From Eutreptiella sp. 'Long Island Sound 2002' (Eukaryota; Euglenozoa; Euglenophyceae; Eutreptiales; Eutreptiaceae), in contig OZ038378.1 of assembly GCA_964036045.1 (NCBI GenBank), forward strand, positions 183,360,944 through 183,424,943: DNA of 64,000 nucleotides. The letters are read 5' to 3'. Positions 2,331-54,716 of the stretch are shown here, piece by piece. The first letter of the stretch is position 1. Each line of letters opens with the position of its first letter. A program made the position numbers and the translations under genes. The notes beneath the pieces are model-generated. The model did not search any database and was not told the origin of the DNA. It was given only the letters and a program-made list of their open reading frames with translations.

Positions 2331-2613
2331 TTTTTGCGGTTAGCTCTGTGGGTCACTTGAGTGCTTGTCCTTTCTGCCGACTCTAAAGAACAACCAGGAT
2401 CAATAAAATAGCAGTCGTCCATAAGGTGTGGACTGCATTCATTGTACTACTTGCAAACTGACTGGGCTGCATAGCATGGCACTCATTCGGCCTGTCCCCT
2501 TCAGTTGCTGTTTAGTTTCAAACAGAGCAGGGAGAAACATACAATAGGAGGAGAGGAGGGTGTGAGGGTGGTAAACTGGCGTGGAAACCACAGCGCCAGC
2601 GGATACAAAGCAG

Positions 2614-3160: not shown

Positions 3161-3196
3161 TCGCCCTGCATCACATGCTTGACAGCACATTGACTC

Positions 3197-4345
3197 ATGC
3201 ACGCGGTGTTAAGCCATGTGTTTGGCGAACCCCGGGTTCCTGCGATTGATCCCGTCGATGGGCAAGCGGGATCCAGACCAAGAGGCGCCTCCATGTTACA
3301 ACGCGGGACCATTGCAGATCTGGCCTCTGTTCTAACCTCCGCACCATCACCGAAAGTGCAGCTCGCTCTCACAGTGATCAAGTGCTTTGAAGAGCAGGTC
3401 ATCCTGATAACGGAGGACGAGTCGCGCAAGAACTCGACGCGGAAGCACTACGATAAGGCAGAGTTAGAGGCGCTGGGCTATGCATTTCGCTTCCTGTCGC
3501 AACTGCACAGCGACTTGGGGCACGAAGAGGAGGCGAACTTGTATGTGCAGAGATGCCGGGAGGTCCAGATCGCCTCCACTTTGCAAGGCCTTGCTGCAGC
3601 CCTTGGCCAGGGCCACGACAGTAGCCCGCACACCGCTGCACTGCGGGATCAGCTGCTCGCAGACCCGGAGGCGATGGCCCCGGTGCTGCTCCAGGCCTCC
3701 CAATTCCCGGTGCTGCTGCACGCGCTGGGCAGTGGGGGCCACAAGGTCGCCCACCACGCGCTGCACGTGTTGTTGGTGGTCCTCGCACAGCCCCTGTGCC
3801 GGCCCCCGTACAAGCGGATGAGGGGCGTCCTGGCGGCGGTGAGTGCGCTGGTCACCGCCATCATCAAGGCCGACGTCTACGGGAACCCCGAGGCGAAGGT
3901 CCTCCGGGTGTCGGTGCTTGTGCTGCGCTACCTCGCGCATTGGGTTCCTTCCGCGTTCGATGAGCACGTGCCTCTGCTGCAGTTGGACCACTTCCTGAAG
4001 GCGCGCGCGGCCCCCACCTCCAGCCTGCTGGCGGTCTGGGCCCAGGTGTGGGCGGACATCCGGGCGAGTCTCGACCGGGACGCTGGAGCTGCCGCCGTGG
4101 AATCGCATTGCGCGACGCGCTCCCGGAGCAACACCCCTCCACCCGCTGCCGGTTCAGCACCCGCCACGCCCTCGGCCCTGCGGGTCCGAATGTTGCTCGC
4201 GGGCCTGGGGCGCACGCGGTCGGCGTCCCTGTTAACGGACACCTCCACGCTCGACTCGTCGGAGACGGACACTACGCTCACGTTTGCCTCCATCCCATCA
4301 GACGAGGAAGATGGGCCTGACGCCATGCTTTCCTGTGTGCCTTGA
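3197..4345 (+). CDS. Unrecognised helical-repeat-like protein, best host-gene candidate
   Basis: A 382-codon ORF, the longest here that is not transposon-related, with strongly GC-rich third positions from about 3440. The first ATG is at 3197; the ATG at 3293 (MLQRGTIADLASVL) is an equally good start and lies where coding character begins. Residues 30-300 are alternating amphipathic and hydrophobic helices (for example VLLHALGSGG, HHALHVLLVVLAQPL, LRVSVLVLRYLAHW), reminiscent of ARM/HEAT-type solenoids, but no family-specific motif is visible. Residues 305-382 are Ser/Thr/Pro-rich and then acidic (TDTSTLDSSETDTT), likely disordered and phosphorylatable. Upstream or downstream exons may exist. 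Antisense ORFs over the same stretch are shorter and look like shadows. I cannot name a function. Confidence 0.6.
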   Translation: MHAVLSHVFGEPRVPAIDPVDGQAGSRPRGASMLQRGTIADLASVLTSAPSPKVQLALTVIKCFEEQVILITEDESRKNSTRKHYDKAELEALGYAFRFLSQLHSDLGHEEEANLYVQRCREVQIASTLQGLAAALGQGHDSSPHTAALRDQLLADPEAMAPVLLQASQFPVLLHALGSGGHKVAHHALHVLLVVLAQPLCRPPYKRMRGVLAAVSALVTAIIKADVYGNPEAKVLRVSVLVLRYLAHWVPSAFDEHVPLLQLDHFLKARAAPTSSLLAVWAQVWADIRASLDRDAGAAAVESHCATRSRSNTPPPAAGSAPATPSALRVRMLLAGLGRTRSASLLTDTSTLDSSETDTTLTFASIPSDEEDGPDAMLSCVP

Positions 4346-5462
4346 TGCGATTCACAGCACGCCATTGCTGAGTGGCGATGGAGTGCGGGTCAAAACAAGT
4401 TTGTGTACCTCAACACCGGCCTTCACTTTCGGGCTCTTTTTTAATAATTTCTTTTTTTTTTTGGTCTTGAGGAACACTTTTCTGATGTGGGTCGGTGGGT
4501 CGGCTGGGGTTTGCCAAGGCTCTACATGAGCCCCCTCCCCCAGGGGCCTTAAGCAACGGCCTGACGACCAGTCCCGGCCTCAAGTCAGTGGTGTGACCCC
4601 GTCGCGATGGTTGTGCTCTGTTCGGTCCCTCGCCCGGTAAGAGTCCGCGTCTCCCCCTTTTCCCTTGGCCATGTTGCAGGCCCACTGCCGAGTGACAGAC
4701 TCCCACGTGACCCCCCGGGGGGCGGGGCGGGGGGGTCAAGCCGCCCCTGCAGAGTGGGTTCGCCCAGAAACTCGGCCTCAGATCTTCGGGCTCCTTCATG
4801 CGTTTCGGTGTCTCCCTCCGGAAAGTGATGTCGATGTGCCGATGTGCCGATGATTGGCCCCCGAAGGGACCCCGCTGACCTGCAACATGACCCGTGAGGC
4901 CCCCCGCCCCCGGGGGAACGCGGGCGGCTGCCAGCGCCCCACAGCCCCGACAGGGGACGGTGCACGAGGGACGGGTGAGGGCTGCGAAAGGGACGTTGCC
5001 TCAAGCCACAGCCTGAACACTGGGCCGAGCAGAGGGGGAGCTCGCGGAGCCATGAGGACTGGCACGTGGGGCAGTGAAGACCGCGGTGCTGCAGGCGGGA
5101 CCACTGACCAACCCCCCCCCCCCTCCCAGTTTTACTCCCCCCCTTCAGGGGTGTGTTGGAACGGCTGACAACGAGAGGAGGAGGGGTGTACCCCCCCCTG
5201 GACCCAGATTTCACCGTGGGAAACAACGAAGCCAACAAAAGGAAATATTGGTTTGGGCTATTTTTGGTACACAAGCTCTTCGGTTCCAGACCCCCTCCTC
5301 TATTCTAATACATCCCTGCCCCCCCCCCCCCCCCCACCCACCCCCTCAACCCGGGAGGGCCTGGGTCACCGATTTCTTGGATCCTGAGAGGTACGATCTA
5401 CAGCAGGTTCTCAGGCACACACATTAATTTCGCCGCTGTGCTTATCTGCCAGCAACTTGATG

Positions 5463-5585
5463 TACATACGATAGTGGAGCACCCCAAGCGAGAAGGGGAC
5501 ACATAAATGATGTGCAAGAACCACTGGACTAGTGTCTAAGGCGGGGACATTCAGTCGATCGATACCGACCATTGATCCCCCGGGA
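5463..5585 (+). repeat. Dispersed ~130 bp repeat, copy 2
   Basis: Plus-strand copy of the 2186-2330 repeat: ATAGTGGAGCACCCCAAGC, AGAAGGGGACAC, ACTGGACTAGTGTCT, GGCGGGGACATTCAGTCG and CCATTGATCCCCC in the same order, with a short deletion in the middle. Confidence 0.6.
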
Positions 5586-6120
5586 GGGCCTGCAGGACCC
5601 TATACCCCAATCCCTACCGTATGTAGACTGCCTGGATGGCCGAGTCCCTGTACACGTCAGGCCCGGCGGCTGTCTCGGAGGCTGCGGCACGCCCCGATGC
5701 TGCATACCACACAGCAGTGCAGCACCGGCCAGGCCGCACCGGCACAGCCCCATGCAGACTGGGGCGTGCCGTGACCTGTTCCTCCGGGGCCCCCTCAGCG
5801 CGCATCACCAAACGTGCCTGTGCTCTCCACGCCCTCTTCCCCCACCGCCCACCCTCCGCCGCCATCCCAATGGGATGTCGGTACTGCTGAGGCGTCCTGT
5901 ACTCGCGTCCCGGACCGATCCGGAGAACTGACACGCTGGCCCTCGCAGACACACGCTGCACGCTCCTGTACACGACACAGACAGCCACAGACCATGCGGC
6001 ACCGCCACGTCCTCACCGCCAGCGGGATCTGGTCCGATGAAGGTCCACAGCAGCCGCGCCACAGCCCCTGTCTGGCCACCCGTCCAGCCGGGGAGCTCGT
6101 GGTCCAGGAGTTCGTGACGG

Positions 6121-6372
6121 TTGCCCCCCCCAAAACGGGCGGGGGGGGGGGGCGGTCATGAAGTGACGGTCCCCTCCCCCCCCCGGGGGGGGGGCGGCAG
6201 ATTGCACCACACGATGGTAGCACTAAAACTGCAGCTGTTCCAGTATAACCTCAAGAAGCATTTGCTTCGGCGCCTTTGGAGCCTAGTATTTCCTCTGCTT
6301 TTTGGGCCAAGCGACGGTCTCCCCCCCCCCCCCGGGGGGGGGCGAGATTTCAAAGGGGGGGGGGGGTACAAC
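6121..6372. repeat. Cluster of C-run/G-run palindromes
   Basis: Within about 250 bp there are three long G or C blocks, two of them direct C(n)G(n) junctions (around 6172-6195 and 6321-6350) that are perfect palindromes and would form G/C hairpins. A further G12 run lies at about 6355-6366. Such tracts are prone to slippage and assembly error. Confidence 0.7.
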
Positions 6373-31069: not shown

Positions 31070-31914
<845 letters not shown>

Positions 31915-32758
31915 GCCGAAAGTGCATATCGCACTGGTCAAGGGGCAACACAGGGACACACCCCTGGCCTGCACCGTGGGCCTCACCAATAGGGAGCGAT
32001 CCGACCCGAGGACGCCAGTGTGGCTATACAGGCTCAACCGGGAGACCTGGAAAAATGGTGAACCCCCTCCCCCACACACACTGCCCTATCTGGTTCATTC
32101 GTTGCGGTGTTTCCGCCATTGACCGGTTCCTGTGTCTTTTGCTGCGCGGGGGTCCTAACCTCCTGCGCCTCAGCAACCGCATCTCTGCACAACGGACACG
32201 CTGCACAGGGCAGCCCCTGCCTGACGAGCAGGGATGGGGTATTGTTATTACAGTTAGGAGACTGTGAAATGGTGTGCCGGGGGTCCTGCAAGCCCGCCTA
32301 TCGAACTACGAACTCATGGTTTTGCAGCCTGTGTAGGAGAGTAGATACACACACACGCACACACATTTACACACACCGCCCCCAACACACACAAGCAACA
32401 GACAGGTTCTCAGAAAGAAAACATAAACAAGCAAATTCACAACTGCCCTTGTCAAGCAGCGCCATATGCCAGCTTGGGGTTGCCGGGGTGCTGCCATTTC
32501 ATGATGAGGACCCTTTCACAAACCCATATTGCACAGTAACGAGGAGAGGGATTTTTCAACATTATACACAGGTTTTGGAGCACCCTATGAACGCCCACAT
32601 GGATCAACAACCGGCGCCCTAGCTCAGACTGCTTTCACACCTTACACCTCACGCCTGAAGCAGCCCAGCTTAGCCCCTCTAAGACCTTTGCGTCCAGTAA
32701 GGAAGAGGGTCCAGATCTTTGGCTCTGCTCCCTTGAAGCTGGTTTTGTTTCATAACAC

Positions 32759-37384: not shown

Positions 37385-37769
37385 ATGGTCAGTCCATGTA
37401 CGCCAGAAGCAAGTATTGGACTTGGCCAACGCGGAGTGAAACAAGATCAATTGGAGTCACAATTGGATGGCTCGGATTCCGCATGCAGTCCAACAGACGG
37501 TGCCAGCGGTGCATGATGTTTGGGTGCAGTGGAACCTGCTGGTAGCGTATGAGCTCAACGCAGAGACATTGTTGAAGGTGGCTTACCTGGTGTTCATGCC
37601 TCATGAGCTAAACAAGGACAAGCCAGAGATCTTGGTCAAGCGGTTGGACCAGTACAGGGTGGCCTACATGAAGCTTCTTTCAGGCAAGTGCCAGAAGGTG
37701 GAGAACCCGGAAGCGGGCACAAGCAGTCCAGGAGCCTAGGGCGCGACACAAGTGGGAACCGCGGAGATT
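37385..37769 (+). pseudogene. Gag-like ORF of the outer tyrosine-recombinase element, 5' part
   Basis: The ATG at 37385 opens MVSPCTPEASIGLGQRGVKQ; after a frameshift the frame starting at 37467 reads VWVQWNLLVAYELNAETLLK VAYLVFMPHELNKDKPEILV KRLDQYRVAYMKLL, a predicted all-helical domain. A TAG at 37737-37739 is followed in frame by GATQVGTAEI, ending exactly at the left end of the TIR transposon. Joining across that transposon (one TT removed) continues as VDSNSTRLQKQVIAASG at 40699. I infer a structural or DNA-binding ORF of a mobile element; the family is not certain. Confidence 0.45.
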
Positions 37770-37796
37770 CCCTACGTGCTCATTTGGATCAGGTAC
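37770..37796 (+). repeat. Left terminal inverted repeat
   Basis: 27 bases, CCCTACGTGCTCATTTGGAT then CAGGTAC, an exact inverse complement of 40670-40696. It is followed within 50 bp by GGTTCAACC motifs. Confidence 0.95.
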
Positions 37797-38351
37797 CCTT
37801 GAATTACCCAAGTGAAACCGTGGTTCAACCGAGTTCAACCGCGCACTTTCATTACGGCTTCCCCACGGTTGAACCCCTATCGAGGTACAGCAACAAATTG
37901 CTAAGTAGCAACCTGAAAACCGCTATTTTTCAGCCCTGCAAGAGATGCCACACCCCCTAAAAAGAATGTTTTTGAAAACCTTCTTACCTCATTGCTGCAA
38001 AACACTGGACACATATTTCTCTTGGATCATATTTCACGGCGGTGGTGTTGTAGGTGCCAGTGGCGGCGGCTGTATTGGTGAAACCGCACGGCTTCACCAT
38101 CAACTCTTCGTTAGGCGTGGTGACATACACCCCTGCGCCTTGTTTGGAATCCCCTTAGGACTTTGGACCCTTTTTAGTGAACAACAATTACATGCAAGCC
38201 TACACTTGATTGTCAGAAGCTTGTTTCCTCATAGATTGCACTAAAATGTAACCGGCTTTCGAGGTGGTTCAACCGCTGGACAGGCGCGCGGTTGCACCGG
38301 CTTCACCGGTTCAACCGCTGTTGCACGAAGCGCCACACAAAAAACACATCT

Positions 38352-38894
38352 TCACCTTGGGAAGCCAAACGTGACAAGTTCGTTCTGCATCGCCACAGGC
38401 AGACGTCCCCATGCAATGCCTGTGTACGGTACGAGCACAATGCGCTGTCCAGACCACGCCAGAGGCACGTGGGGCCTAAGAGCGTTAAACATGACCCCAT
38501 ATCGAGGATCCACAATGTGTCCCCATAATAAATCACGCCCCCAACGTATGCATGCAGGACGAGAAGGCCCATTTGCACAAAGTAGGGCACTGGTAAACAG
38601 TTCCCCCCCCACAAAATCACCCAGGGCTATTTCCCCCGTAAGGGGACTGTCATCCTTTGGATGCGTATGTACAAGCATGGGATGATCGCCCACCCCATGG
38701 ACCACTGCGAGCGCAGTGTAGGTTAGTTGGGGGAGTACACTTCGGATGTGTGCGTTCACGCGCCGGACCAGGTCCGGATGTCTCCTCGTTTGCACTCCAA
38801 CTTGCACACGGTGATGCCCCTGCACCATTACGGCCCCCCACAACTGCCTACGGTACCGTGCTCCATGTCCTTCCCGCCACTGCCACCCCCTCAT
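38352..38894 (-). pseudogene. TET/JBP-like 2-oxoglutarate/Fe(II) dioxygenase domain
   Basis: The 180-residue minus-strand ORF has the landmarks of the TET/JBP-type double-stranded beta-helix: an IRSVLPQLTYTALAVVHG strand region, VHTHPKDDSPLTGEIALGDF VGGELF (the metal-site loop followed by the diagnostic LGD(F/Y)xGGEL), then FNALRPHVPLAWSGQRIVLV PYT carrying the distal His and the Arg that binds 2-oxoglutarate. Family members oxidise 5-methylcytosine or thymine in DNA. The first metal motif is HTH where HxD is expected; one base change (GAC to CAC) would explain it, so activity is doubtful. It is in the same frame as the acidic segment upstream, separated by a single TGA (38916-38918), so the two were probably one protein. 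Confidence 0.6.
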
Positions 38895-38915
38895 TCCCTT
38901 GAGGCACGTAAAAAG

Positions 38916-39290
38916 TCAGTCGTTTGGGAGTGGCTCTTCCTTCACGTGAGGCACTGGTGCACCAACCTCTGGGGCTGCCTCTTCGTTATCTTCCTGCTTA
39001 CATGCAGGCATTTCCTCGTCCTTCGGCGCTCCACCAACCTCCTCAATCTCCTCTTGCCCAACCGGGGCTGCAGGCGAGTCCTCCCCACTGTGCTGGTGCT
39101 CCACCTTTTCCTCTTTGACCACCTGTTCTTCACTCTCCTTTGGCTCTGGCACCTCCGGCGGACTAGGCACAGGAATGTGCTTCTCAGTGTCCTTTGGCTC
39201 TGGAATCACGGGCGGCGTCGGCACAGGAACTCCTTGTTTCCTATACTTTAGGAATTTTGCTTCAAGTCTTGTACTTCGTCGCCATTCACA
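38916..39290 (-). pseudogene. Pro/Glu-rich linker between transposon gene and dioxygenase
   Basis: The frame is open from about 39315 on the minus strand (WSREKERWVGCEWRRSTRLE AKFLKYRK), then Pro/Glu/Lys-rich sequence (VIPEPKDTEKHIPVPSPPEV, EESEEQVVKEEKVEHQHSGE type) to the TGA at 38916-38918. Low complexity and charge suggest a disordered linker. It is in frame with the dioxygenase domain but one frame off the upstream exon, so either a frameshift near 39300 or a small intron separates them. Confidence 0.45.
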
Positions 39291-39292
39291 CC

Positions 39293-40464
39293 CTACCCAT
39301 CTTTCTTTCTCCCTAGACCATGTCGCAAAAGAATAAATTGAACCAATTTCATAAAATGTTGATAGACCAAGTATATGACGAAGCCAAGGGCTATCGCCTC
39401 AATAATGACAACCGTTCGCACCCAAAACCCTCGGAGCAACATGTAGCCACGGTCAATAATTTGTTGTATTTTTTTTAGTGTCTCTCCAAAGAGGACACGC
39501 ACAAGATCCGTTTCATGCTCACTTACGAGAGCAAGGTCAAGGGTCCAATTGTAGAGCAAAGTTCGTGCTTTTTGCATGTGGTTTGCAAAACCACATGCAA
39601 TTTGGCACCATGACCTTGCTCCACATGGAAACCCATCACCACGCACTATAAGTACATAGGGGTGATCATCCCTAAATCTTGGGAAGTGCATTTCTTCTAG
39701 CACATCCCTTTGATCACCTATATATTGTATCCAATCATCCACATCCCAACGAACCCCAACTCTTCCATCCTTTATGGTCGTTTTTAGTACTTGTCTCTTA
39801 CTTAACGTGGACCAAGCTTTATCCATCGTTGCATACGACGGAAAGCAATGTGTCCATGGGACGGTGCTTGCACGGGGTTTCTTCTCTTTGGCATCGGCCC
39901 ACGAAATAAGCTTCTTGTACCTAGGGACGGTTGAACCGAGAAATTGGGATAAAGTGCGCGGTTGAACCGGCGGTTGAATGGGTTGCCGTGGTGGCACCAA
40001 AAAGCGTCCAATGGTACAAACCACAAAGTATTCACATTTGTGACGCGTGCAACACGTTGCAACTCATATGTTCATGCTTTGGGCAACATTAAGCGATTAT
40101 TTTGCCGTGCAAACGTTGTCATGAAGCACAATCACAATTGTTCATTTGCGATAAGGGTTCAACCGCACCGTTGAACCCCGTTGAACCACTTGTAGGCATG
40201 TGTGCATTATGCCACATACCTTCGCTTCGGCATCCCAAGGTCCAAAATGAGGCGCACAGCGTCGGATCCTGTGAAAGCTTTTTTTGTAGCCCTTTTTGTC
40301 TGTTTGGAAGCCCTCTGTGTGTTACCAATTCGGTCAGCAAGTTGTTTCCATAAGCGTTTTGTCGTGCCGTTTGTGCAAAAAAAGGTGAACAAGTCGTCCA
40401 CCAGCTGTTGGTCCCCCCACCCGCTGTAGTGGTCGTTCACCACTTGCAGCCAGTGGTGGGACAT
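39293..40464 (-). CDS. Spliced gene of the TIR transposon, candidate novel transposase
   Basis: Exon 1 runs from the ATG at 40464 (MSHHWLQVVNDHYSGWGDQQ) to 40237, ending at AAG CGA AG|GTATGT, a near-perfect donor. The acceptor CCCTAG|GTACAAG at 39928 restores the frame (MPKRR then YKKLISWADAKEKK). The 308 bp intron is packed with GGTTGAACC motifs. Exon 2 continues through WTHCFPSYATMDKAW, VGVRWDVDDWIQYIGDQRDV, HPYVLIVRGDGFPCGARSW and LALVSEHETDLVRVLFGETL to a hydrophobic segment (TVVIIEAIALGFVIYLVYQ) and a stop at 39293. The RGDG strand-turn resembles the first-Asp strand of RNase-H-fold transposases, but this is inference. No named family recognised. Confidence 0.5.
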
Positions 40465-40669
40465 TTTTTAATTTTTTTTAAAAAAGCTTTGTCACGTGTC
40501 AGTTTCAGGCGGTTATGCAAATATTTTGTTCAGAAACGCGCGCGCCGCTGGCCCAGCCGCCACCGCCAGCGCTGGCGGTGGTTCAACCGCGGTTCAACCG
40601 CGGTTCAGCGGTTCAACCGCGCCCCTTCCGAGTTCAACCGGGTTAAACCGGGTAAAACCACTGTGTGAA

Positions 40670-40696
40670 GTACCTGATCCAAATGAGCACGTAGGG
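40670..40696 (-). repeat. Right terminal inverted repeat
   Basis: Exact inverse complement of 37770-37796. Immediately inside it are repeated GGTTCAACCG and GGTTAAACCG motifs (40570-40660). Confidence 0.95.
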
Positions 40697-40698
40697 TT

Positions 40699-42925: not shown

Positions 42926-43008
42926 TGTCTCTGTGCACCGGCAGCGACCCCGCGCCGTACAACCAGTGCTCCGAGTACAGGCAAACATAAGCAGAAGGGC
43001 GGACTAAG

Positions 43009-45510
43009 ATGGATCCAGGAAAGGAGGACGCTGACGTGAAGACAGCGCCAGCGCCTGAGGCACCGGCAAGGCCGGCACCTGGCGCTGTACCTTCGGCGGA
43101 GCCCTTACATGGGCCAGTGGATACGGCTGAGGACTCCCTGGATGGGCTTCAGACGGCCTTCGGGGCCCTGTCTGTCGAAGAAGTGGTCTCTCAGCCTCAG
43201 CCTGTGAAGAGGAAGAGAGAGAATGAGAGCGAGAAGGATGCTGGAGGAGAAGCAGACGAAGGAGAGGAACAAGGGCAAGACCTGACGAGTATCCCTACCT
43301 TCGAAGGCGCACCAAGCGCTTCTGGCCTCCACGCATCACCCTCTCCCATAACCACCACACTCCCAGCCGCCGCAACATCCACTTCCACAACCAACCTGCC
43401 TATGGCAGAGGGCACAGGCTTTACTGGCATGCCTCCCTACCCCGCCTATGGTATGGGCCCACCTACCACTGCGCTCCATGAGGCAACTACTGCCAGTGAG
43501 CCTGTGGCTTCCAGCGCTGCGCCGCGATGGTATGCAGCTGATTATCCCCATCCACTACACGCTACTGGAACCTATGTGGATGTTCCTGGGTATGCTCCTG
43601 GGTATGCACCTGGGTATGCACCCTTGAGTGGGTTGAGGAGAGGACCTGAGTCCCTTGGAGGCAGGAGTAGAGGATCGGGGAGATCCTCCAACAGGTCCCT
43701 GACGCGGTCGGAGATCAACGAGGTGCTCCGAGGAGCCACTTCAAAAATCGTGGGCGACCTCACGCAAGAGATCAGGGAGAAACTGGAGCCCCTGATGATC
43801 CCGTCCCATGCGTCACCTACGACGGTGGAAATGTCACCCCACCGAGTACAGGCTAACCACCTGGCGGCAGGGTTGACGAATACCCTGGGGAGCCTGAGGA
43901 GCCGACCGTTGCCGACTCCTGCAGCAATACCGAGAAGTCCATTCGTCCCGAGAACGGCCCAGCCGCCCTACAGCCACGTGACGAACTCGACGAGGGCCGA
44001 GCTGGACCAGCTGGGGCTGACAGCCTTAAGGGCTATGGTGGACGTAGAGCCTTATGCCTCTAGTGATCTTGGCGGAGACCCCTCCGATGACGAGCCGCCG
44101 TCGATGGATTCTTCTTCGCCCTCAGATGACGATGACCCTGAGGACCCTGAGGACCCCAAGGGTAACAAGAAGAAGAAGAAGAAGAAGAAGACCCGACGCC
44201 CTGAAGGACGCCGAGCTCAGGAGGCGAAGGCTATTGCCACCTCCAAGATAGTGGTCAACCTGCCCGAGTTCACAGGCAAGGACCTCAGCGAGTTCGCTGA
44301 GAACTTTGGCCGGTTCCTACGACTGAACGGCCAAACCCACGCGAGTGGGCGAGTGAAGTGCGATCTGCTCCTGCAGTGCTGCAAGACCAAGTACCTGGAG
44401 AAGCAGGTCAGGCAGATCGTGACTAACTCCGCCACCTTTGCCGATGTGTTGGTTGCCCTGGAGAGGCAGTACCCGACCTACGAGACCGACCTCTCCATCA
44501 GGGCCGAGATCCGGAACCTGCCCGTGCTGCCCAACAACCCCAAACCTGGCAGGGTCTCCGAGCTGTTGGCTGACCTGGATCACTGGGCTGGACGACTGAC
44601 GCCCGGTTCCTACAGCAGCGACGACCTGCTGTTCTGGTTGTGCGCCAAGCTCCCCCGAGAGCTATGGGACGAGTGCCGTTTGACGGCTGAGCGCAAGGCT
44701 AGATCCCTCCGCTACGAGGATCTATGCGTGCTGCTCCTGGAGATGGCGCTGGAGAAGGAGAGCGACCAGCACTTGAACAACTACCGTCCTGGTGGTGGAG
44801 GTTCTGGAGGCAAAGGGTACCAAGGGTCCCGGCCTGGGCAGGGGACTACCCCCAAACACGCCCACGCCCGTCTAATGGAGAACGTGAAGGAGCTATTCTG
44901 GTGTGATGCCAGAGATGAGCAGGGCCACCTGCAGCACGCCTCTGACTGCGAGCAGCGAGACTGCTTCGTCGTCCAGGGGAAGCAGCAGGAGAAGAACACC
45001 GGCGCCAAAGCGAAGCTGCCGGATCATTACCGCTGCACCATCACGTGTGCATTCTGCGGTAAGCGGAAGCACTACGAGGATGAGAACTACCATAAGCAAC
45101 GCCTATCGGCGAAGCTTAAGGGGGAAGATCCTGGCAAAGGCTCAGGCAAAGGTGGAGGCAAGGCCAAAGGCAACGACTCCGGCAAGGGCAAGTCGAAAGG
45201 ACGTGGTCAAGGTGGTCAAGACAAGGGTCAAGGTGGACGAGGAGGAGGCGCTAACCGCCAGACCGACAACAAGAACAAGGACAAGAACGGAGGCAACCCC
45301 AACCCTAATCCAGGGGGGAACTCCGAGCCCTCTGGAGGGCAGTCTGGACCTACCACACGCTCACAAACGCAGGCCCAGCAAGAACAAGGAGCCAAGCGTG
45401 AGCATGAAGGTGGTGATGACGGCAACGCTAAGAAGAGGAGCCGTTTCATGAAGATGGCCCGCAAATTGCGGAACAAGGGGTTCGAGGTAACCTGTCCCGG
45501 GGAGTTCTGA
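43009..45510 (+). CDS. gag: Gag polyprotein of the Ty3/gypsy element
   Basis: 833 codons from the ATG at 43009, 100 bp after the LTR. Residues 1-100 are acidic and Pro/Ala-rich; about 190-206 hold three PGYA units. A poly-Lys patch (386-400) follows. Residues 415-585 are a retrotransposon-gag-type helical capsid domain (VNLPEFTGKDLSEFAENFGR, YETDLSIRAEIRNLP, LCAKLPRELWDECRL). A CCHH knuckle (C680-x2-C683-x4-H688-x6-H695) replaces the usual CCHC. The tail is Gly/Lys/Gln-rich (GKGSGKGGGKAKG), likely RNA-binding. The protein packages element RNA into virus-like particles. It ends at a TGA followed by C, after which the same frame enters protease. Confidence 0.88.
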   Translation: MDPGKEDADVKTAPAPEAPARPAPGAVPSAEPLHGPVDTAEDSLDGLQTAFGALSVEEVVSQPQPVKRKRENESEKDAGGEADEGEEQGQDLTSIPTFEGAPSASGLHASPSPITTTLPAAATSTSTTNLPMAEGTGFTGMPPYPAYGMGPPTTALHEATTASEPVASSAAPRWYAADYPHPLHATGTYVDVPGYAPGYAPGYAPLSGLRRGPESLGGRSRGSGRSSNRSLTRSEINEVLRGATSKIVGDLTQEIREKLEPLMIPSHASPTTVEMSPHRVQANHLAAGLTNTLGSLRSRPLPTPAAIPRSPFVPRTAQPPYSHVTNSTRAELDQLGLTALRAMVDVEPYASSDLGGDPSDDEPPSMDSSSPSDDDDPEDPEDPKGNKKKKKKKKTRRPEGRRAQEAKAIATSKIVVNLPEFTGKDLSEFAENFGRFLRLNGQTHASGRVKCDLLLQCCKTKYLEKQVRQIVTNSATFADVLVALERQYPTYETDLSIRAEIRNLPVLPNNPKPGRVSELLADLDHWAGRLTPGSYSSDDLLFWLCAKLPRELWDECRLTAERKARSLRYEDLCVLLLEMALEKESDQHLNNYRPGGGGSGGKGYQGSRPGQGTTPKHAHARLMENVKELFWCDARDEQGHLQHASDCEQRDCFVVQGKQQEKNTGAKAKLPDHYRCTITCAFCGKRKHYEDENYHKQRLSAKLKGEDPGKGSGKGGGKAKGNDSGKGKSKGRGQGGQDKGQGGRGGGANRQTDNKNKDKNGGNPNPNPGGNSEPSGGQSGPTTRSQTQAQQEQGAKREHEGGDDGNAKKRSRFMKMARKLRNKGFEVTCPGEF

Positions 45511-46044
45511 CGGGGACGCTCTGGTGGCACCCAAGACCTGGTGTTTTGGGTACGTATCCGACTAGGCGGACGTGAATACCTGGGGGTACTGGATACTGGC
45601 GCCACAATATCTATAGTGGCCAAGAAAATTTTACCTTGTGGGAGCCTGAAGAACACCATGACCACCGCTGCTATACGTATGGGGGATGGACATGTGGTGC
45701 ACAGCTGCGGGGACTGTGAAGTGGAGGTACCTATGGGCTCTCGGACTATCGCCCATCGGTTCTATGTGATGGACACTGAGGCCTTCGACTTTGTACTGGG
45801 TACTGACTTCTTCGTGCAGCACTCCCAGATACAATCCCTGACGCTGCAAGCGCCCTACCTCCTGTACGTGGACCACGGCAGTGGCAGAGAGTCTGTGCCA
45901 CTGGAGCAGTCGGAACATACCTCGAGTTACCTGAGACTATCAAAGGAGGAGCCCTCGAACATGATGGCGGCCTCCAAAACTGAGGACTATCAACTATTGG
46001 GGGAAGTCCTAGACCAAGGTCTGAAGGAGTTGGGTTACTCTTGA
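45511..46044 (+). pseudogene. pol: Aspartic protease segment of pol
   Basis: Continues the gag frame. VFWVRIRLGGREYLGVLDTG ATISIV carries the DTG catalytic triad at 45592-45600, and FDFVLGTDFFVQH is the typical second half (LG.DF). The protease matures Gag and Gag-Pol as a dimer. A TGA at 46042-46044 ends the segment although the frame goes on into reverse transcriptase, so it is a lesion or a programmed stop. Confidence 0.8.
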
Positions 46045-48474
46045 GAAGACCTAAGTGTGGAGTTGTTCGCCAGCGACAAGCAACATGTACTGGGCCTTTC
46101 CTGCAGCAAGGGGAAGAACTGCAGCTACAAATTTTACTGGCCCTCTTTCGGGATGGCCTACGGGAACCCCAGGTTCAGTGAACTGGGGAAGGTGCTGACC
46201 AAGGTGGCCTTGGAACGTTCCCGTATGGTCCTGTGTTCCCCCGATTGGGGAGCCCATGGGGGCAACGAGTACTGGCGAACCCTCCTTGACAAGCTGACTA
46301 TTCGCTCTGTGCGGTTACCTGATGAGGCCATCTACGTGCCTCTGGGACGCAAGACGCCCATTGGGAAGCCCGGATGGGGGAGTATGCTAAGCGTGGTGGA
46401 CAGAGGTCTTACCTCCATTCCCTGGGAGGACCTGGACCCGACTCTGGTCCAGGCTATACAACGAGAAAGCGATGGACTCGCCTTGGGTGACTTGAAGGAT
46501 CACCTACGACCTCAAGATGCTGTTGAGACTACACCCGGAGGAGATGAGTACGTCGTGACCGACACCAACGCCCCCAACTCACCCTGCCATGTACCTGTAC
46601 CTGATGGAGTCTCTGAGTGTGGACTATCTGAGCTACCTAGCTCTATCCACTCAGATGACGAAACTGAGCACGACGCCTTCTTCGTGCAGACCTGTGTGGA
46701 GGAAGTGGAGAACGCCGAGTACGTCGCCCCACTGAAACCCCTACTCTCCATGAGGGTGGAAGACCCCGTGGATGAGGAGCTGGACCCTCGATCCAGGCTC
46801 AGGGAGTATGTGGATTCCAAAAGGAAGTTGGTGGCGAAAAAGCTATGCTACGCGAAGCCTACCCGCAGCTCATGGCCATTGAAGCAAGGACGTATGGGAG
46901 ACCTATCCCAATTGAAGGAGGACCTCGAACAGAAGATCACCACCTGGCAAAGGGAGGTAGATCTGAAGCTCATGAAGAGCGTGTGGGGCGCCCATGTGAG
47001 GACCCCAGAGGAGGACGACCTCTCGGAGGAATGTGTATGTGAACCCCCTCGAGCTTGCCTATGTTGCCATCGTCCACCGGAGATGGTTGAACAAGACCTT
47101 CTGTATGCCTACCAAGGGCTGAAGGATACTACCACGGGCGAAGAGTCGGTGGAGGACCACCTCCCGACGTCTATTACTCAGGGGGCCAGCAACTTACACT
47201 CTGACGAGGACATGGAGGACAAGATCAAGGTCTTGGACCCGCGGGTACAGAAGCTTATAAGGACCTATCTGGAGGTGTTCGGAGAACTACCCCCTCCAGC
47301 CTCATGTGACAAGCTGGTACAGATGGACCTCAAGCTGAAACCCGAGTTCGTGGGTCATAAGATTCGGAGGAGACCCTATTCAGCTCCTAAAGAGCAGGCC
47401 GACGAGATTGAGCGACAGATACAAGAATGTATCGACGCTGGCCTAGTCCTGGAGTACAAGGACGGGGACTACCCCCTACACTGCAGCCCCTGTTTCCTGG
47501 TGGCTAAACCTGGGTCTACAGCCAAACGGCTGGTAGTAGACTATGGAGAGCTGAACAAGAAGACGCTGAACCACTCAGGGTCCATTCCCAATATGGAGTC
47601 TACCCTGGAGAAGATAGCCTCCTGTCGCTACAAGACCAAGATGGACAAGCGAAGTGGATTCTGGCAAGTGGACCTGAGGCCCAACGCGCAGGAACTACTG
47701 GCCTTCATCACCCCTCAGGGGAGGGTATTCAAGTGGAAGGTCATGCCATTTGGCGTGGCTAACGCACCCGCTCTGTTCCAAGAGCTGATGAACAAGATCT
47801 TGTCCATCCTACGAAGGAGACCTAAGGTGCAGGAGCTCATATCCCGTGGGGCCCAGATGGAGGCTCACATCGACGATGTATGCCTGGGGACCAATACCCA
47901 GGAGGATCACCTAATCCTCTTGGGTGAGTTCTTTGCGGTCTGCCAGGAGAACCACACACGACTCAAGCTGGAGAAGTGTGAGTTCATGCAGGAGACCATG
48001 CAGTACTTGGGGTTTGACGTTGGCTATGGGTGGTGGACCCCAGCGGCCTCTAAGGCCAAACCCCTGATGGATGCCAAGGTACGACACGAAGACCCCAAGA
48101 AAGGGCTTCATGATGTACGCAGTTTCATTGGGGCGTGCAACTTCTATCGCCGCCACATCAAGAACTTCACCTATACCAGCGCCGTTCTGACGGACTTGAT
48201 CAAGAAGAGTACTACTTGGCGCTGGGGCCCACAGGAGCAACAAGCGTTCGACGAGCTCAAAGACAAGGTAGCCAACGCTAAGTGCTTGGGCGTGCCTAGA
48301 GCACAAGGGGAGATTATCCTGGTGACCGACGCCAGGAATGTGGGCGGTGGTGGAACGTTGTTCCAATGGCAAGCACTAGAGAAAAAGGAGTTCGACTCGG
48401 CCATTTCCCAATGGGGGACGGAAGGTCTCAACCGAGATGGAACCCTCAAGCGCAGCTATCCTGACGACAAGTAG
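46045..48474 (+). pseudogene. pol: Reverse transcriptase and start of RNase H
   Basis: About 400 residues of poorly conserved linker precede the reverse transcriptase from about 47250. LVVDYGELNKKTLN, YKTKMDKRSGFWQVDL (first catalytic Asp) and FKWKVMPFGVANAPALFQEL MNKIL are canonical. The active-site box is AHIDDVCLGT, with His at the usual Tyr of YxDD (47866-47877). The connection (YLGFDVGYGWWTP, FIGACNFYRRHIKNF) and the first RNase H strand (IILVTDARNVGGGGTLFQW) follow. A TAG at 48472-48474 interrupts it. It copies element RNA into DNA. Confidence 0.88.
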
Positions 48475-49470
48475 GTCCTAGTACCTCTGGGCCACTGGAA
48501 CTGGAAGTGGAACCAGGCCAGGGGGAACTACTCCACCTATGAGCAGGAATTGCTCGCGGGTATGCTGGTGCTATCCTCACAAGCACGACTGTTGGGGAGT
48601 AACCCTGTGGTCTGGCTATGCGACCAAGAACCGGTCCGCAGTTTCCAGAAGGGTCCCCCACCTGAGAAGGCCAAGCTACGGCGCTGGTGGACCTACCTCA
48701 GTCAACTACGGCTGACGGTACACCATATTCAGGGAGTGAAGAACGAGTGTGCCGACTACATCAGCCGCAACAACTTCGACGCCCTGATTGGTGCCCGGTC
48801 TGAAGCGCTGGCTAAGGAGGCTTTCAGCCGTATGGACGTACACCTGGACCTGAACATGACCATGATACGCCCCCTGGATGGACTCCAGCAATCGGAGTAC
48901 CTGAAAGAGTTCGGGGATATCTACAAGCGCCTGGAGAAACGCCTTGAACCCCTCCTGGTCAACCAAGACCAGTGGAAGAGGGACAAGAGCTACCTATGGT
49001 ACGAGGACCGTATTGTGGTGCCTAGTGACCGAGTCCAAGCGCTGCTGAAGTGGACCCATGAGTCCAGTGGTCATGTGGGTGCTGACCGTACCCTGAGGCT
49101 GTTCAAGCAGTGGTTCCACACTACGTGGACTGACGACCAACTGCGGAAGACCCTCCAGCCTATCGTGGACAAGTGCCCGTGCAGGTCCTGTAAACCTGGG
49201 GATATCAGGGACAGAGGTCTCTACTCGACCCTGCCCATCCCTCACTGTGCTAACAGTGTTCTATACGTGGACTACACGGAGATGCCGAAGTTCGGGGGCT
49301 ATGACTTCGCCCTCGTGGTAACCTGTGGGTTGACCAGGTTTACCAGGGTGTTCCCATGTACCAAGCACATTGCCGGGGAGGAGACTATCAAGATACTCCT
49401 GGAGGAGTGGTTTTGTGTCTATGGGGCGCCCAAGGAGATCAACTCCGATGAGGACGTACGAGTACGCTAA
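48475..49470 (+). pseudogene. pol: RNase H remainder and integrase N-terminal/core segment
   Basis: RNase H continues with YEQELLAGMLVLSSQAR (Glu), VVWLCDQEPV (Asp) and GVKNECADYISRNNF (last Asp). Integrase has a zinc module (THESSGHVGADRTLRLFKQW, CPCRSCKP) and the core with VLYVDYTEMPKFGGYDFALV (Asp at 49270) and KEINSDEDVRVR (Asp at 49447). A TAA at 49468-49470 stops the frame where related proteins continue with a TGWYKRVL block. Confidence 0.85.
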
Positions 49471-49833
49471 GTTACTGGCTGGTACAAGAGGGTCCTGAGA
49501 TCCCTCAATGTCCAGGTGTCTACGGGGATTCCCTACTCTCACACGAGCAACCCCCTATGTGAGCGACAGATCCGTGTCCTGAAGGAGAACATACGGATAT
49601 GGTGCAAAACTGAACGCACCAGAGACTGGGTAAGACTACTCCCCGTCATATCCTTGATGATGAACTCCCAAGAGAGTTCAGCTACTGGCTACTCGCCACA
49701 TGAGCTATTCATGGGGCGCCCGGCGTGGTTCCTACATGCCCCCTATCCAGAGGACACCCATTCTTCTGTGGGTGAATGGGTCCAAGAGCAGCAAGCGAAG
49801 GTGGACAAGGCTAGGCTATGCTCTAGAGAGTGA
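49471..49833 (+). pseudogene. pol: Integrase core, C-terminal half
   Basis: Still frame 1: VTGWYKRVLRSLNVQVSTGI PYSHTSNPLCERQIRVLKEN carries the third catalytic residue (Glu at 49561). TGYSPHELFMGRPAWF is the standard GxSPxELxxGR block near the end of the core. A TGA at 49831-49833 follows; the rest of pol is in frame 3, so a one-base indel lies near 49825. Confidence 0.85.
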
Positions 49834-50474
49834 GGGAGCGTCAGTGGAACAAAAAGAACAAGCACCGAGTACCGGCCACCTACCAAGAGGGGGACTGGGT
49901 GCTGCTGCACCACAGTCGACTACCCGCCTGGCCACGCTCTACCAGCGATGACCCATACTTCGGGCCGTACAAGATCCTATCAGTGGATGGACACCGTATC
50001 ACCGTGCGGTGTTCTCCCCATCTAGGGGGGACCCTGGTGTGCGCAGCTCAACACCTGAAGCGCTACCATGATCCTGAAGACCTCTGTGGGGAGGAGTGGG
50101 AGCTGAACGACGAGGAAATCGCCGCTCTGGACCTACAAGGGGCAGCCAGCCCTATGGAAGTTGAAGGTGAACTCCCCGACATGAACGCCGAGGAGATGGC
50201 TAAGGAGGGCTTCTACCTGGTGAAGTCTGTCCTACGCCACCGCTATCGCCAGGGTTGGCGCTTCCTCACCCTCTGGGAAGGGTTTGGACTCGAAGAGGCC
50301 ACCCCGGAGCCCTTCTCTGCATTTGTTCTACCTGAGGGACGCCTAAACTCAGTTCTGGTTGACTACTTGTCCCAGAACAACCTTGGTGAGTTGCTGAGGC
50401 TCGCTGAGACGCTTGCCTCCAAGACTAAAGCTAGGGACCGAACCTTACCCTTACCTGCCAAAGCGTATGTGTGA
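49830..50474 (+). pseudogene. pol: Integrase C-terminal domain with chromodomain-like tail
   Basis: Frame 3. EGDWVLLHHSRLPAWPRSTS DDPYFGPYKI is the GPY/F module; the segment down to HLKRYHDPEDL completes the integrase C-terminus. FYLVKSVLRHRYRQGWRFLT LWEGFGLEEATPEPFSAF is a chromodomain-like unit, which marks chromoviruses and can steer integration to modified chromatin. The expected TWEP aromatic is TPEP here, whereas the neighbour at 54.6 kb keeps TWEP, so reader function may be lost. Terminates at 50472-50474. Confidence 0.75.
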
Positions 50475-52685
50475 GTGTGCTATTCCTAAGGTCCTGAGAG
50501 CAAGCCGCAGAAGTGGTGTCCTAATTATACCCAAGTCTGCGCCCTTGCTAAACCTGGAGGGTTGGCTTATTGATGCCACGGGGTACGCCCCGGGTCTCCC
50601 CTCCCCTAAGCGCCCAATTTCTGTGCTGGCGCAAAACCTTTGGGGAATACCCAGCGTACTAATCCAGGTATTGTTTTCCCTACCTATCTGTCTACTACAG
50701 GGAGGGGTGGCCAAAAGCTATGAAGGCATGAAAACGCCGTTTTGCTATGTGGCCAAAACACTGACCTAACCACTGCCACAGCCCGCTAAAATTGCAGGAA
50801 ACGGGTGGGACAGTGACACACGCACTACAGGTCCTACACACCCTACAGTGGCACCATCCTGGTGGGCGAGCACTGGGGCAACTGGCTCAAGCCCCCACTC
50901 AGGACTACCACTCCTACACACACACTCTACTGGGCGTTGCGAAGTCAAAGGTGTCGTGGGTCCTAGCGACCCTCCTGTGAAATGACAAGAGAACACAGCG
51001 CTGCTAAGCAACTGTGGCCTAACAGGGGACGCCACAACGCGTTTCCCCTGCTAGGGCTTGGAGGGAAGGAGTGCTCTCGCGTGCAAGGCGCAGATGTCGA
51101 TGGAGTCGGACTCCCTGCTCTGCCACAGGCAGAGGCGGAGTTACTTGTTTGTGTGATCTGCGCCCTTGTTTAGCAGGGCATAAAACAATGCTGCTGCACC
51201 AATCACCCTACCTGCCCACCTGTAAAACAAAGGCAAATGAAAGGGCGTTTGCGGCGGAGGAACCAAGCCACACTCCAGGTATTATACCCTTCTCAGTGTG
51301 ACCTATAATACACTGTCCGCAAACACGCTGGAAGTCCAGCTACCCTTGTCAAGCAAGCAAGCGTTAAGGGACTCCTCAGGTTCTCTTAAAGAACGTACCG
51401 AGGAGCCCCTGGGTAGCCTAAACAAGGTTTACCGTGCGCACTTCGCGTGGCCTACCCTTTAATGCGTGTGTGCATGCGCGAGTATGCACGAGTCCTTTGG
51501 GCACACCTGCCCATCTCAACACCAATCACGAACTCCACCAGGGGGTGGCCCCGCCTGGGCTTACTCACCTTACCTACCGCTGGAGAGAGAGAGCAAGTGA
51601 GGGGCGCACGCGAAGAACGTTGCAATGCACTTGTGTGTATGTCTAATCACCCTGATCTGACCGCTAATCATCTGCAATCTTCCTAATCAATCCCTCTATC
51701 GCGTCCTATCGTTGTTAGCGCTGCTACAAGGCTCGTTCACGGAGACACGAGACGAGCAATGTGTATGCGGCATGCGAGACGAGCATACCTGTAGTTTATA
51801 CCTGATTCGTTGAAATCTTTTCGATTGATTTTCGAATTCTTGAATTTTTGATTCTTCTAATAGTGTGGGTGGAATCTGTATGTTTATTTATTAATGTGTG
51901 TCTCGTCATTTTCAAGACTACGTGAGACATACGTTTATAATTCCATTATTTCTCCATTTTCCGGCGCTTCGCTAGGAGCCGCTCCTGCGCGCCGCCATTT
52001 TATGCGTATGAATTTCTGGATTTAAAAAATCCAGAGATGACTATAATTTCTATAAAAATGTGCTTCTGATGCACAATTGGATTCTGCTCAGGTGTGTCGT
52101 TTCAGAAAAATTCTACGCCGTCATTTGACGGATTTTGGTGTCGTCGCTTCGTTTTTGCGTGGATTCGTCCATAATTCTCCCATTCCTGCCTCTGCTGATA
52201 CCCACGCGCAGCCTCGCTGAGTAGGCCGTGTTCGGGCCGAAACGCAGGTGCCTGGAGAAACTGAGCAGAACCAAGACCCCACCAAGGGGCAAATTTAATT
52301 CTTTTGAGACTCCCTTCGCCCTAAGACAGGTCACAGGTCGCCAGCAGGTTTACGAGAACCCATGCGAGTGTGTATATTGTGTCTTGAGTTTGGGTTGTGT
52401 CGACGCTGCGTCTTGGAGGGAGGGATGCATATGCACATGTTTGGCATGCTCCCATACTAACCCAACCAAGCCACAGGAGCCCCGGCAGCGCCATGAGCGC
52501 TGAGTCTTCTGTAGGATATGATACAATCAGAGCAGCAAAAGAGCGCCAGCCATGGTGAGCGCCCATTTTTCAGTGTGAGGGAAACTGTAGGTATTTTAAA
52601 GTAGATGTGGAAACCAAGGAAAGGCCAAGAAAAATTCCCTTTTTCCTAAAATGCGACAGTGGTGGCCACCACAGCACAAGGGGGG
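50475..52685 (+). other. Long 3' noncoding region of the Ty3 element
   Basis: 2.2 kb between pol and the right LTR without a convincing ORF. Blocks are shared with 54717-57543 of the truncated relative: GCGCCCAATTTCTGTGCTGG CGC (50611 and 55358), a CACCTGTAAA(A/G)CAAAGGCA block (about 51220 and 55890), TATAATACRCTGTCC, and CCTACCCTTTAATGCG. The last kilobase is AT-rich. The polypurine tract AAGGGGGG at 52678-52685 abuts the right LTR. Confidence 0.7.
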
Positions 52686-53482
52686 AGTAAGAAAAAGTGC
52701 TTTTCCATTGCTTTGAGGCATACTCTAGTTGTATTAGAGATGCACTGAGCATCCATGCATTTTTATCTTAGTATTGGTCCCACCAAAACTGGTGATAACA
52801 CATTTTGACCTATGGAACCAAACACCCAATCAGGATATGGAGTGGACCCCTTAATCCCCTTTCAATGTGAAGTAAAACATCTTTTCCTGAGTTGACTGAG
52901 CACTGACATACCTAAGGTAGAGCCTATGAATTTATCTATGTTTTTCCATGAATTCTTAGCTATCCTAGTGGTATGCACCCTAGGGGGCTGGGCACCTCTT
53001 TTTGAGAGGTCCTGGGTTCAATTCCTGGTCAGCCTAGCTAAGTAGGAAGATCCCATGTGACATGGCAGTGACCTCATCGCCACATACCATGCCACCTCAG
53101 CACATATGGGACCCAAAACAAAGAGTGCACATCTCCTGAGATGGCACTATGGAGAGAGAGTGACCTGAGGCAGTTTTCCAACTCTTTTCCCAAAACATTT
53201 CGGCTATCTTTGTGAATATGCATTCATTTGTGACCTGAGTTGCAGTTTCTGTGAATATCCAATCATCTTTCACTGTGTACACTGCAGCCCTTCATGCTTT
53301 GATCCTGAATTACCTTCTCCTTGCACACTTCTGGCTTGGGCTATCCTGGATTGACTTGGACTTACTGTATTTCAATAAACAAAAGCTTTTCATCTCCCAA
53401 AACAAGCAGCAGGACACCCTACAGCAACAGCAAGCAGCAGGAGAAGCAAAAACACAGTGCTGAAAACACTATAAACTTTTCT
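52686..53482 (+). repeat. Right LTR
   Basis: 797 bp, same termini as the left LTR. The six differences I count are all single-base substitutions (about 0.75 percent). AATAAA at 53374-53379. Confidence 0.9.
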
Positions 53483-53487
53483 GAGTG
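53483..53487 (+). repeat. 5 bp target-site duplication (right)
   Basis: GAGTG, identical to 42107-42111. Confidence 0.8.
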
Positions 53488-53945
53488 GGGAGAACAACCG
53501 GTGCCGGTATGTGAAGACAGTCGGTATCGCCTCGTGTATGGAGACTGGTCCTCCAAGCAGTGGTAGCCAGCATTATTGCAGAAAGAGCTCAGAGAACCGG
53601 CGGCGGGAGCACAACCACATGGCAAGCTTTGGGATTGACTACACGAGCCGTCCGCAAAAGGAGAAGAACCCCATCGGCAAGGCCGCCGGGGGCAAAGTAG
53701 ACGTCAATGGGCGCATAGCTGCCGCATGGAGAAGTTGGCAGAACTGGGAGAGAAGCTGGACATGGACCTGGTCCCGGTGCATGACAAGGTGTGCAACGAG
53801 GTGCACGAGAAGGAAAGAGCCAGGATGTCCGAGTCAATGAGCCAGCCGATACTAAGAACTGCGATGTAGCACGTGATGGAGCCATTGAGGCCATTCCAGT
53901 GGTTGTGGGCTGCCTATCCGAGTTAGCCGAAAAGGGGGACCCTCA
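53488..53945 (+). pseudogene. Downstream part of the interrupted tyrosine-recombinase element
   Basis: With the Ty3 element and one GAGTG removed, the left flank joins to SGENNRCRYVKTVGIA, whose RCRYVK resembles the catalytic-Tyr block of tyrosine recombinases. Further on, 53729-53869 encodes MEKLAELGEKLDMDLVPVHD and a Glu/Lys-rich helix to a TAG. Sequence of the truncated Ty3 relative begins near 53946. Confidence 0.35.
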
Positions 53946-54716
53946 CATCGGAGCTCTTCTACGGGTTTAAACCCCCACGAACTGTTCCATGGAGGACGAC
54001 CTGCTTGGTTCTTCAAAACCCCCTTTCCTGAGGACTTCAAGAGCCCTGTGGGAGATTGGCTGGAACACAAGCAGTCTATAGCTAACCAGGCTGGGACTAA
54101 CCTGAGACACATCCGTGACCGTGAACTGAGCCGGCGGAACCGCCTGCGGCGACCTGCCAGCTTCAAGGTTGGTGACCTTGTTTTGGTTCACCATTCACGC
54201 CTACCCTCCTGGCCACGTAACTGCCTACAGGACCCTTATTTTGGACCCTATCGTATCATCAGGATACATGGATCCAGGATCCATGTCAGGTGCAGTCCAC
54301 GTCTAGGTGGTGAACTGCTGTGTGCACCTAAACAGTTGAGGCACTATCACTCCCCTGACGATTTGTCCCGGGATGAGTGGCGCCTCAGCGACAGTGAGGT
54401 CGAGCGTATTGACCTCGAGAATGCTGCCAGCCCAGAGGAGGCAGACGAACTCGAAGAGATGACTGCCGATGAGATGGCAGTCAATGGTTACTACGTGGTT
54501 ACGGGTATTGCTCGCCACGAGTCTAAACAGGGCTGGAAATTCCCAACGGTGTGGGATGGCTATGGGTTATCTGAGGCGACCTGGGAACCTATGTCAGCCT
54601 TCATACAACCAGATGGGAGTATCAACCCCATCTTCCGCTCCTACCTCGTTGAGAACAACGAGGGGCAGCTACTAACCCGTTCTGAGACTCTGTCCCAGCG
54701 TAAAAAGAAAAACTAA
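53946..54716 (+). pseudogene. pol: 5'-truncated second Ty3/gypsy element: integrase C-terminus and chromodomain
   Basis: Starts abruptly in the integrase core (STGLNPHELFHGGRPAWFF) and continues in one open frame through FKVGDLVLVHHSRLPSWPRN, DPYFGPYRIIRIHG and YYVVTGIARHESKQGWKFPT VWDGYGLSEATWEPMSAF, a chromodomain with the TWEP aromatic intact, to a TAA at 54714-54716. It is colinear with 49690-50474 of the full element but clearly diverged, so it is a related lineage rather than a duplicate. Everything upstream of this point in the element is missing. Confidence 0.75.

Follow-up and report, generated by a model that had tools for sequence, protein, structure and literature searches.

DNA transposons that carry a TET-type dioxygenase have been described in three fungal lineages, where elements with several unrelated transposases harbour, beside the transposase, a dioxygenase-like protein with an HxD or, in the PE type, an HxE metal motif, which is proposed to counter silencing, a function not yet backed by experimental validation (Kojima, 2025, PMC12730594). 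According to the same study, TET/JBP genes are cargo of fungal KDZ (Kyakuja-Dileera-Zisupton) elements with their large transposases, Zisupton is characterized by 8-bp target-site duplications (TSDs) and EnSpm/CACTA and CMCT by duplications of 2–5 bp (Kojima, 2025, PMC12730594). On the other hand, VANDAL elements encode VANC, an anti-silencing protein which is reported to read short motifs in the non-coding DNA of the element (PMC10398659; PMC5735166). Here we analyse a transposon of 2,927 bp at positions 37770–40696 of a stretch of 64,000 nucleotides (in the following, the window) from the euglenoid Eutreptiella sp. 'Long Island Sound 2002' (contig OZ038378.1). This copy is an internally deleted derivative of a two-gene element of about 6.27 kb, and the second gene of the parent ends in a domain for which a TET/JBP assignment is plausible from its residue pattern. 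With the fungal TET-carrying elements the family shares a dioxygenase-like protein beside the transposase and a proposed anti-silencing role, but it is euglenoid, its metal motif reads HxH, the domain forms the final exon in the gene of a long accessory protein with several exons, the transposase matched no Pfam family and the domain matches no TET/JBP profile. Neither this element nor a TET-carrying DNA transposon outside fungi was found among the matches listed by the literature searches, in which the TET-carrying ones are fungal only.

The insertion and its copies in the genome

The element is a real insertion of a transposon with terminal inverted repeats (TIRs). As claimed in a preliminary description that was based on the window sequence alone, the repeats are perfect over 27 bp, one at 37770–37796 (the 3' end in gene sense, with the same end in 13 other copies) and its partner at 40670–40696 (the 5' end in gene sense), and TT is found at both flanks, at 37768–37769 and at 40697–40698. 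An empty site recovered by genome search (G000:C10:19055872-19056262) matches the two flanks, once joined, along its entire 391 bp with 97% identity and contains one TT, so the element is an insertion accompanied by a 2-bp duplication; chance inverted repeats are ruled out by this empty site and by the further copies. The insertion target is itself repeated, the best 40 of 118 candidates of the joined-flank search having been scored.

The assembly searched amounts to 2.28 Gb, and copy counts of the genome searches are lower bounds, since 40 of 1,311, 100 of 7,868 and 150 of 2,984 candidates were scored. With the window element as query at least 44 matches were obtained, the majority spanning one part of the element only. 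Twenty genome stretches were fetched and, with up to three mismatches allowed in the inverted repeat, both ends are present in 13, while the two ends do not both lie within the fetched stretch in seven (L010, L013, L019, L021, L024, L025 and L027). Genome-wide collection of copies and comparison of their ends had been set beforehand as a check, and the two-ended copies stop at the TIRs, none running past them. All 14 two-ended copies, the 13 and the window copy, have the identical 2 bp on either side, namely TC, AT, GG, GA, TT, TC, AT, AA, AA, AG, AA, TA and TT in the 13 others and TT in the window, a variation from which it follows that the target is not fixed.

The 13 other complete copies fall into seven of 6,078–6,278 bp, one of 8,151 bp and five of 2,906–4,035 bp, these five short ones having internal deletions with breakpoints other than those of the window copy. 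The parent element is approximately 6.27 kb long and possesses two genes on one strand, 27-bp TIRs and 2-bp duplications of any sequence. The 8.15-kb copy (L028 1370–9520) encloses another, partial match to its own family, family 1, and is probably a nested insertion.

The window copy as a deletion derivative

The window copy is a non-autonomous internal deletion derivative in which positions 1–1470 of a 6,275-bp copy (L009) are joined to positions 4783–6275. The junction, with about 3.3 kb lost, lies at 39228–39237, approximately 10 bp being alignable to both sides in the comparison with L009, an arrangement usual for derivatives of this kind. The element length of 2.93 kb that had been put forward is correct for the window copy, but the family length is about 6.27 kb.

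All coding parts are on the minus strand. Transposase exon 1 (MSHHWLQ...MPKR) occupies 40220–40464, as judged from its open frame, a GTATGT donor at the predicted splice site and the full-length layout, and is followed by a GT..AG intron with GTTCAACCG sites at 39921–40219 and by an N-terminal remnant of exon 2 at 39237–39920, which contains the regions of the first and second conserved Asp in comparison with P0048, P0067, L009 and L029. One nucleotide is lost near 39399–39400, the frame stops before the junction, and the C-terminal part of the transposase with the conserved Glu region is deleted. On the other side of the junction, a remnant of gene 2 exon 4 with a Pro/Glu-rich linker (38946–39237, delimited by frames and comparison with full-length copies) is separated by a 48-nt intron at 38898–38945, with an in-frame stop inside and predicted splice sites, from exon 5 at 38352–38897, stop included; the family 2 exon starts at the same place. 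Exon 5 encodes the dioxygenase-like domain, in which H76, H78, D81, D82, H142 and R151 are counted from the Met at 38894.

The two-exon protein and the TET/JBP-like domain of the preliminary description are both present on the minus strand of the window, the former interrupted by a GT..AG intron and the latter as an open frame of 180 amino acids. The two-exon protein, called unrecognised there, can be given an identity as the N-terminus of a predicted DDE-type transposase. The single product in which both parts seemed to be fused does not hold, as the transposase reading frame is displaced and ends ahead of the junction, at which the loss of about 3.3 kb has brought two genes together; the apparent gene fusion is a deletion scar. 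A compact autonomous element of 2.9 kb with one fused gene including a TET/JBP domain is what a reading of the window sequence alone suggests, but the two-gene parent of about 6.27 kb, the shifted frame of the window copy and its deletion junction leave it virtually no credence, and a single fused gene is ruled out by the full-length copies, the junction and the frameshift.

The transposase gene

In full-length copies, gene 1 extends in gene sense from exon 1, starting at 233, over an intron to the end of exon 2 at about 2,199. Comparison of two families identifies three conserved acidic residues, D139, D220 and E451 in the frame of L029, which are kept in L009 and the DDE-like order of which suggests a DDE-type transposase; such an enzyme would cut at the TIRs. 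The assignment, made from conserved residues, has to be seen against a structural model with a predicted local distance difference test (pLDDT) score of 45 and against sequence and profile searches in which the transposase had neither a Pfam nor a PDB match.

The affiliation with known superfamilies was considered on the basis of termini, duplications and motifs. Zisupton duplicates 8 bp (PMC12730594), whereas 2 bp are duplicated here, and KDZ was rejected on this feature. The 2-bp duplication lies within the range of 2–5 bp given for EnSpm/CACTA and CMCT in the same study, but EnSpm/CACTA ends are CA..TG, whereas families 1 and 2 end in CCCTA..TAGGG. Of the C(2)C and H(3-4)H that characterize CMCT/EnSpm transposases between second Asp and last Glu, a conserved C(2)C is missing from this interval in the two-family alignment, read by eye; EnSpm/CMCT was rejected on these two features. 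That the element matches no nameable family, as had been stated, is borne out, since it fits no superfamily tested. Some of the fetched full-length copies are themselves defective: in L016 the second conserved Asp is replaced by His, and the gene-2 frame is interrupted in L009 and L011.

Gene 2 and two further families

Full-length gene 2 spans about 2,300 to 5,690 in gene sense and consists of five exons, the last of which is the dioxygenase-like domain, with exon limits drawn from frames and family comparison. A protein search retrieved relatives at about 52% identity, which led to family 2. Its copy L029 measures 7,190 bp, has TIRs beginning with CCCTAGTGACCCC and is flanked by AT; a TSD is present in all three family-2 copies with both exact ends (AT, AT and TC), whereas in the remaining family-2 stretches just a single end was seen or an end was imperfect. 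Two genes are arranged in the order of family 1, with transposases 51–52% identical. A genome search with one family-2 relative yielded, among the best 100 of 7,868 candidates, many that are 100% identical and 21 with an in-frame stop. Family 2 is a recent family with the architecture of family 1.

Pieces of both genes also occur in a third family (P0097/P0099; L051), where a transposase N-terminal remnant is located directly before the domain; at L051 6865–7625 the remnant is followed by a domain with LHIHLGDDS. A further genome search, in which the best 150 of 2,984 candidates were scored, listed 118 matches at 43–46% identity, among them the window copy and five of the family-1 copies that had been fetched, with six in-frame stops. 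P0091, a family-2 domain protein, was also encountered in metagenome sources of the Joint Genome Institute (JGI; 44 members, 9 contigs), from which it follows that the host or a relative is present in sequenced environments.

Between families 1 and 2, the dioxygenase-like domain is 45% identical at the protein level over 184 columns, and further conserved blocks of gene 2 are located outside the domain. Of the 50 fourfold sites of the domain that could be compared, 33 differ, and its 46% protein identity therefore indicates that it was held by selection when the families parted. Among 12 copies of family 1 purifying selection was not seen, with 37 non-synonymous, 12 synonymous and one stop change (ratio 3.1, compared to 2.3 expected), which counts against the role proposed below, though it is what would be expected for recent copies and is usual after insertion. 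Gene 2 might alternatively have been captured from the host and play no part in transposition, as gene capture is common among transposons and the frequent deletion derivatives, five of the 13 other complete copies, indicate that loss is tolerated by the element. Such a passive cargo is nevertheless very improbable, because gene 2 is kept in two complete families, with a piece in a third, despite synonymous saturation and at 45% protein identity.

Identity of the dioxygenase-like domain

The conserved pattern of the domain reads H-x-H-[P/L]-x-D-D-S, then [G/E]-D-F and, later, a His, an Arg nine residues on, a hydrophobic strand and a Tyr. The distal part from His to Tyr fits the 2-oxoglutarate-binding pattern of TET/JBP-type enzymes, and H142 and R151 are, by this pattern, the candidate metal-binding His and 2-oxoglutarate-binding Arg. 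Both residues are conserved across families 1 and 2 as well as in L033, while P0099 has Asp for the His and P0002 has Cys for the Arg. The C-terminal pattern may also resemble that of domains encoded by dinoflagellates. The distal His/Arg pattern and the order of conserved blocks resemble those of the TET/JBP dioxygenases of PF12851, which, however, have HxD where HxH is found here and the profile of which is not matched. In the best segment of a comparison with hhalign, the distal His and Arg are paired with a TET-like protein encoded by the host genome, at a level that is not significant.

Several observations weigh against a TET/JBP identity. The metal motif is HxH and not HxD or HxE in three families, in 12 of 12 family-1 copies, in P0091–P0094 of family 2 and in P0097 and P0099 of the third family, with LxH in the L029 copy. 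PF12851 was not matched by hmmscan at E values up to 10 (domains of the window and L029, L033 and P0091) nor, at E values up to 1, by the 26 aligned members, and the domain is not among the six whole-genome matches of PF12851. A PDB profile search with the domain returned one unrelated match (E 1.1). The AlphaFold model of the domain, with a pLDDT of 35, is too poor to judge the fold, and a Foldseek search with it, which for that reason carries no weight, gave 42 weak matches, the best with an E value of 1.2. Equally, alignment of the three families with TET-like proteins of the same genome by hhalign reached an E value of 0.33, to be compared with 0.25 for the transposase as control. Searches directed at viruses were of no further help: PHROGs gave nothing significant for the element proteins, a phage search returned two records at E 0.6, and among viral contigs relatives of the domain were candidates by pattern, of which none was confirmed.

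The TET/JBP-like domain of the preliminary description consequently stands as a residue pattern that resembles 2-oxoglutarate/Fe(II) dioxygenases of the TET/JBP type, but not as a PF12851 match, and with HxH in place of HxD. In sum, we hold a TET/JBP fold to be moderately probable and an active enzyme to be somewhat less so. The domain could instead represent another cupin-like protein of the double-stranded beta-helix fold, or a relative devoid of catalytic activity, in which case gene 2 may serve as a structural or DNA-binding accessory for loading the transposase on GTTCAACCG arrays, in the manner of TnpA in En/Spm. This is a possibility, if one of less than even odds, which draws on the replacement of HxD by HxH in three families, on the resemblance of HxHPxxD to the first cupin metal motif, on searches in every one of which TET/JBP went unmatched, and on conserved blocks of gene 2 outside the domain together with repeats typical of subterminal binding sites. 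The distal His, the Arg nine residues on and the strand ending in Tyr, on the other hand, fit the 2-oxoglutarate-binding strand, and it is these residues that the best hhalign segment aligns, if not significantly, with the same-genome TET-like protein.

The same genome encodes other TET-like proteins. L031 664–2268 (G000:C2034) matches PF12851 with an E value of 6.6e-18 and has a canonical HKD and a glycosyltransferase-like tail; its small contig looks giant-virus-like. Three related TET-like proteins, L032 (1279–2358), L034 and L035, are below the PF12851 cut-off, L032, with HRD, at an E value of 4.6e-6 and below the cut-off score; HRD is present in two of the three and L035 is degenerate. 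A link of L032, L034 and L035 to the transposon was not found.

The GTTCAACCG arrays

Exact GTTCAACCG sites number 18 in L009 and 28 in L029, compared to a mean of 0.07 and maxima of 1 and 2 in Markov shuffles. They lie outside the drawn exons in all 18 cases of L009 and in 27 of the 28 of L029, the remaining one being located at the edge of the approximate exon 1 and probably in the intron. All 12 exact sites of the 64-kb window are inside the element, where 0.58 would be expected. Three of these are subterminal at 37823–37874, two are in the 3' untranslated part at 38267–38317, two are in the transposase intron at 39928–39967, with one more at 40157–40165, and four are subterminal at 40581–40640, all located by motif search. 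The placement is alike in both families, subterminal, in the transposase intron, intergenic, in gene-2 introns and 3' of gene 2, and in family 2 many sites are 10 bp apart. L051 of the third family has one exact site in its 9-kb stretch. Conservation of the GTTCAACCG core between families with half-different proteins suggests a putative binding site. Each GTTCAACCG/CGGTTGAAC motif ends in a cytosine-guanine dinucleotide (CpG). The longer introns of both genes in both families mostly contain GTTCAACCG, while exons are devoid of it, as if introns were kept as site carriers.

A proposed role in a methylated host

The window copy, a deleted two-gene transposon, can be integrated into a scheme in which the transposase would move the parent element by cutting at the TIRs, and derivatives such as the window copy would arise by failed gap repair and might be mobilized in trans, because TIRs and subterminal repeats are kept. 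The accessory protein, or the transposase, would read the GTTCAACCG/CGGTTGAAC arrays, and the C-terminal domain of gene 2 would oxidise a base at or near them, most likely 5-methylcytosine (5mC), so that the element stays expressed in a heavily methylated host. That an encoded base modification, most likely 5mC oxidation, counters silencing is a proposition we regard as evenly balanced. The role of gene 2 is derived by analogy to fungal TET-carrying transposons and VANC proteins. The combination of two genes and subterminal repeat arrays resembles En/Spm with its TnpD and TnpA. VANC is not known to contain a dioxygenase domain; the reading of motifs, a described capacity of VANC, would be a predicted one in the Eutreptiella element.

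As to the host, the spliced-leader sequence of Euglena gracilis is found with at most one mismatch at 5,415 places (2,655 + 2,760) and its reversed control at none. Heavy cytosine methylation of E. gracilis DNA near giant-virus insertions and the presence of base J in euglenoids are reported in one study (PMC12455990), and DNMT1 is present in Euglena according to another (PMC12344493). The euglenoid base J (PMC12455990) raises an alternative in which the domain would be active but hydroxylate thymine and feed base J synthesis, a J-type base serving to mark or shield the element. The JBP enzymes belong to the class in question (Kojima, 2025, PMC12730594), but a link between the domain and JBP was not found and the motif ends in CpG, which points to cytosine, so that we consider thymine as the substrate improbable. 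Beyond 5mC oxidation as such, a more specific possibility is a TET/JBP-fold enzyme with a three-histidine (HxH...H) iron centre, aimed at helically phased GTTCAACCG arrays and kept through at least three families, which on present indications is on the unlikely side.

Other features of the window

Reading frames resembling those of a long terminal repeat (LTR) retrotransposon extend over 42991–54716, with matches to reverse transcriptase (PF00078) and RNase H at 46045–48474. A long (TG/CA)n microsatellite at about 31300–32000 shows up on either strand in the form of His-Thr and Cys-Val reading frames.

Significance

Since 5mC in E. gracilis and base J in euglenoids have both been reported, the question of the substrate can be directly addressed, and the many near-identical copies allow base modification to be compared between element copies and neighbouring repeats in existing nanopore data. 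If the more specific possibility were true, the element would edit the modification of its own DNA within a host having both 5mC and base J and would represent a TET-carrying DNA transposon from outside the fungi, with a novel type of active site. Equally, if a silencing-countering dioxygenase is encoded, transposons on another branch of the eukaryotes would have met silencing with the same tool as the fungal elements, here joined to a different transposase and changed in its metal motif.

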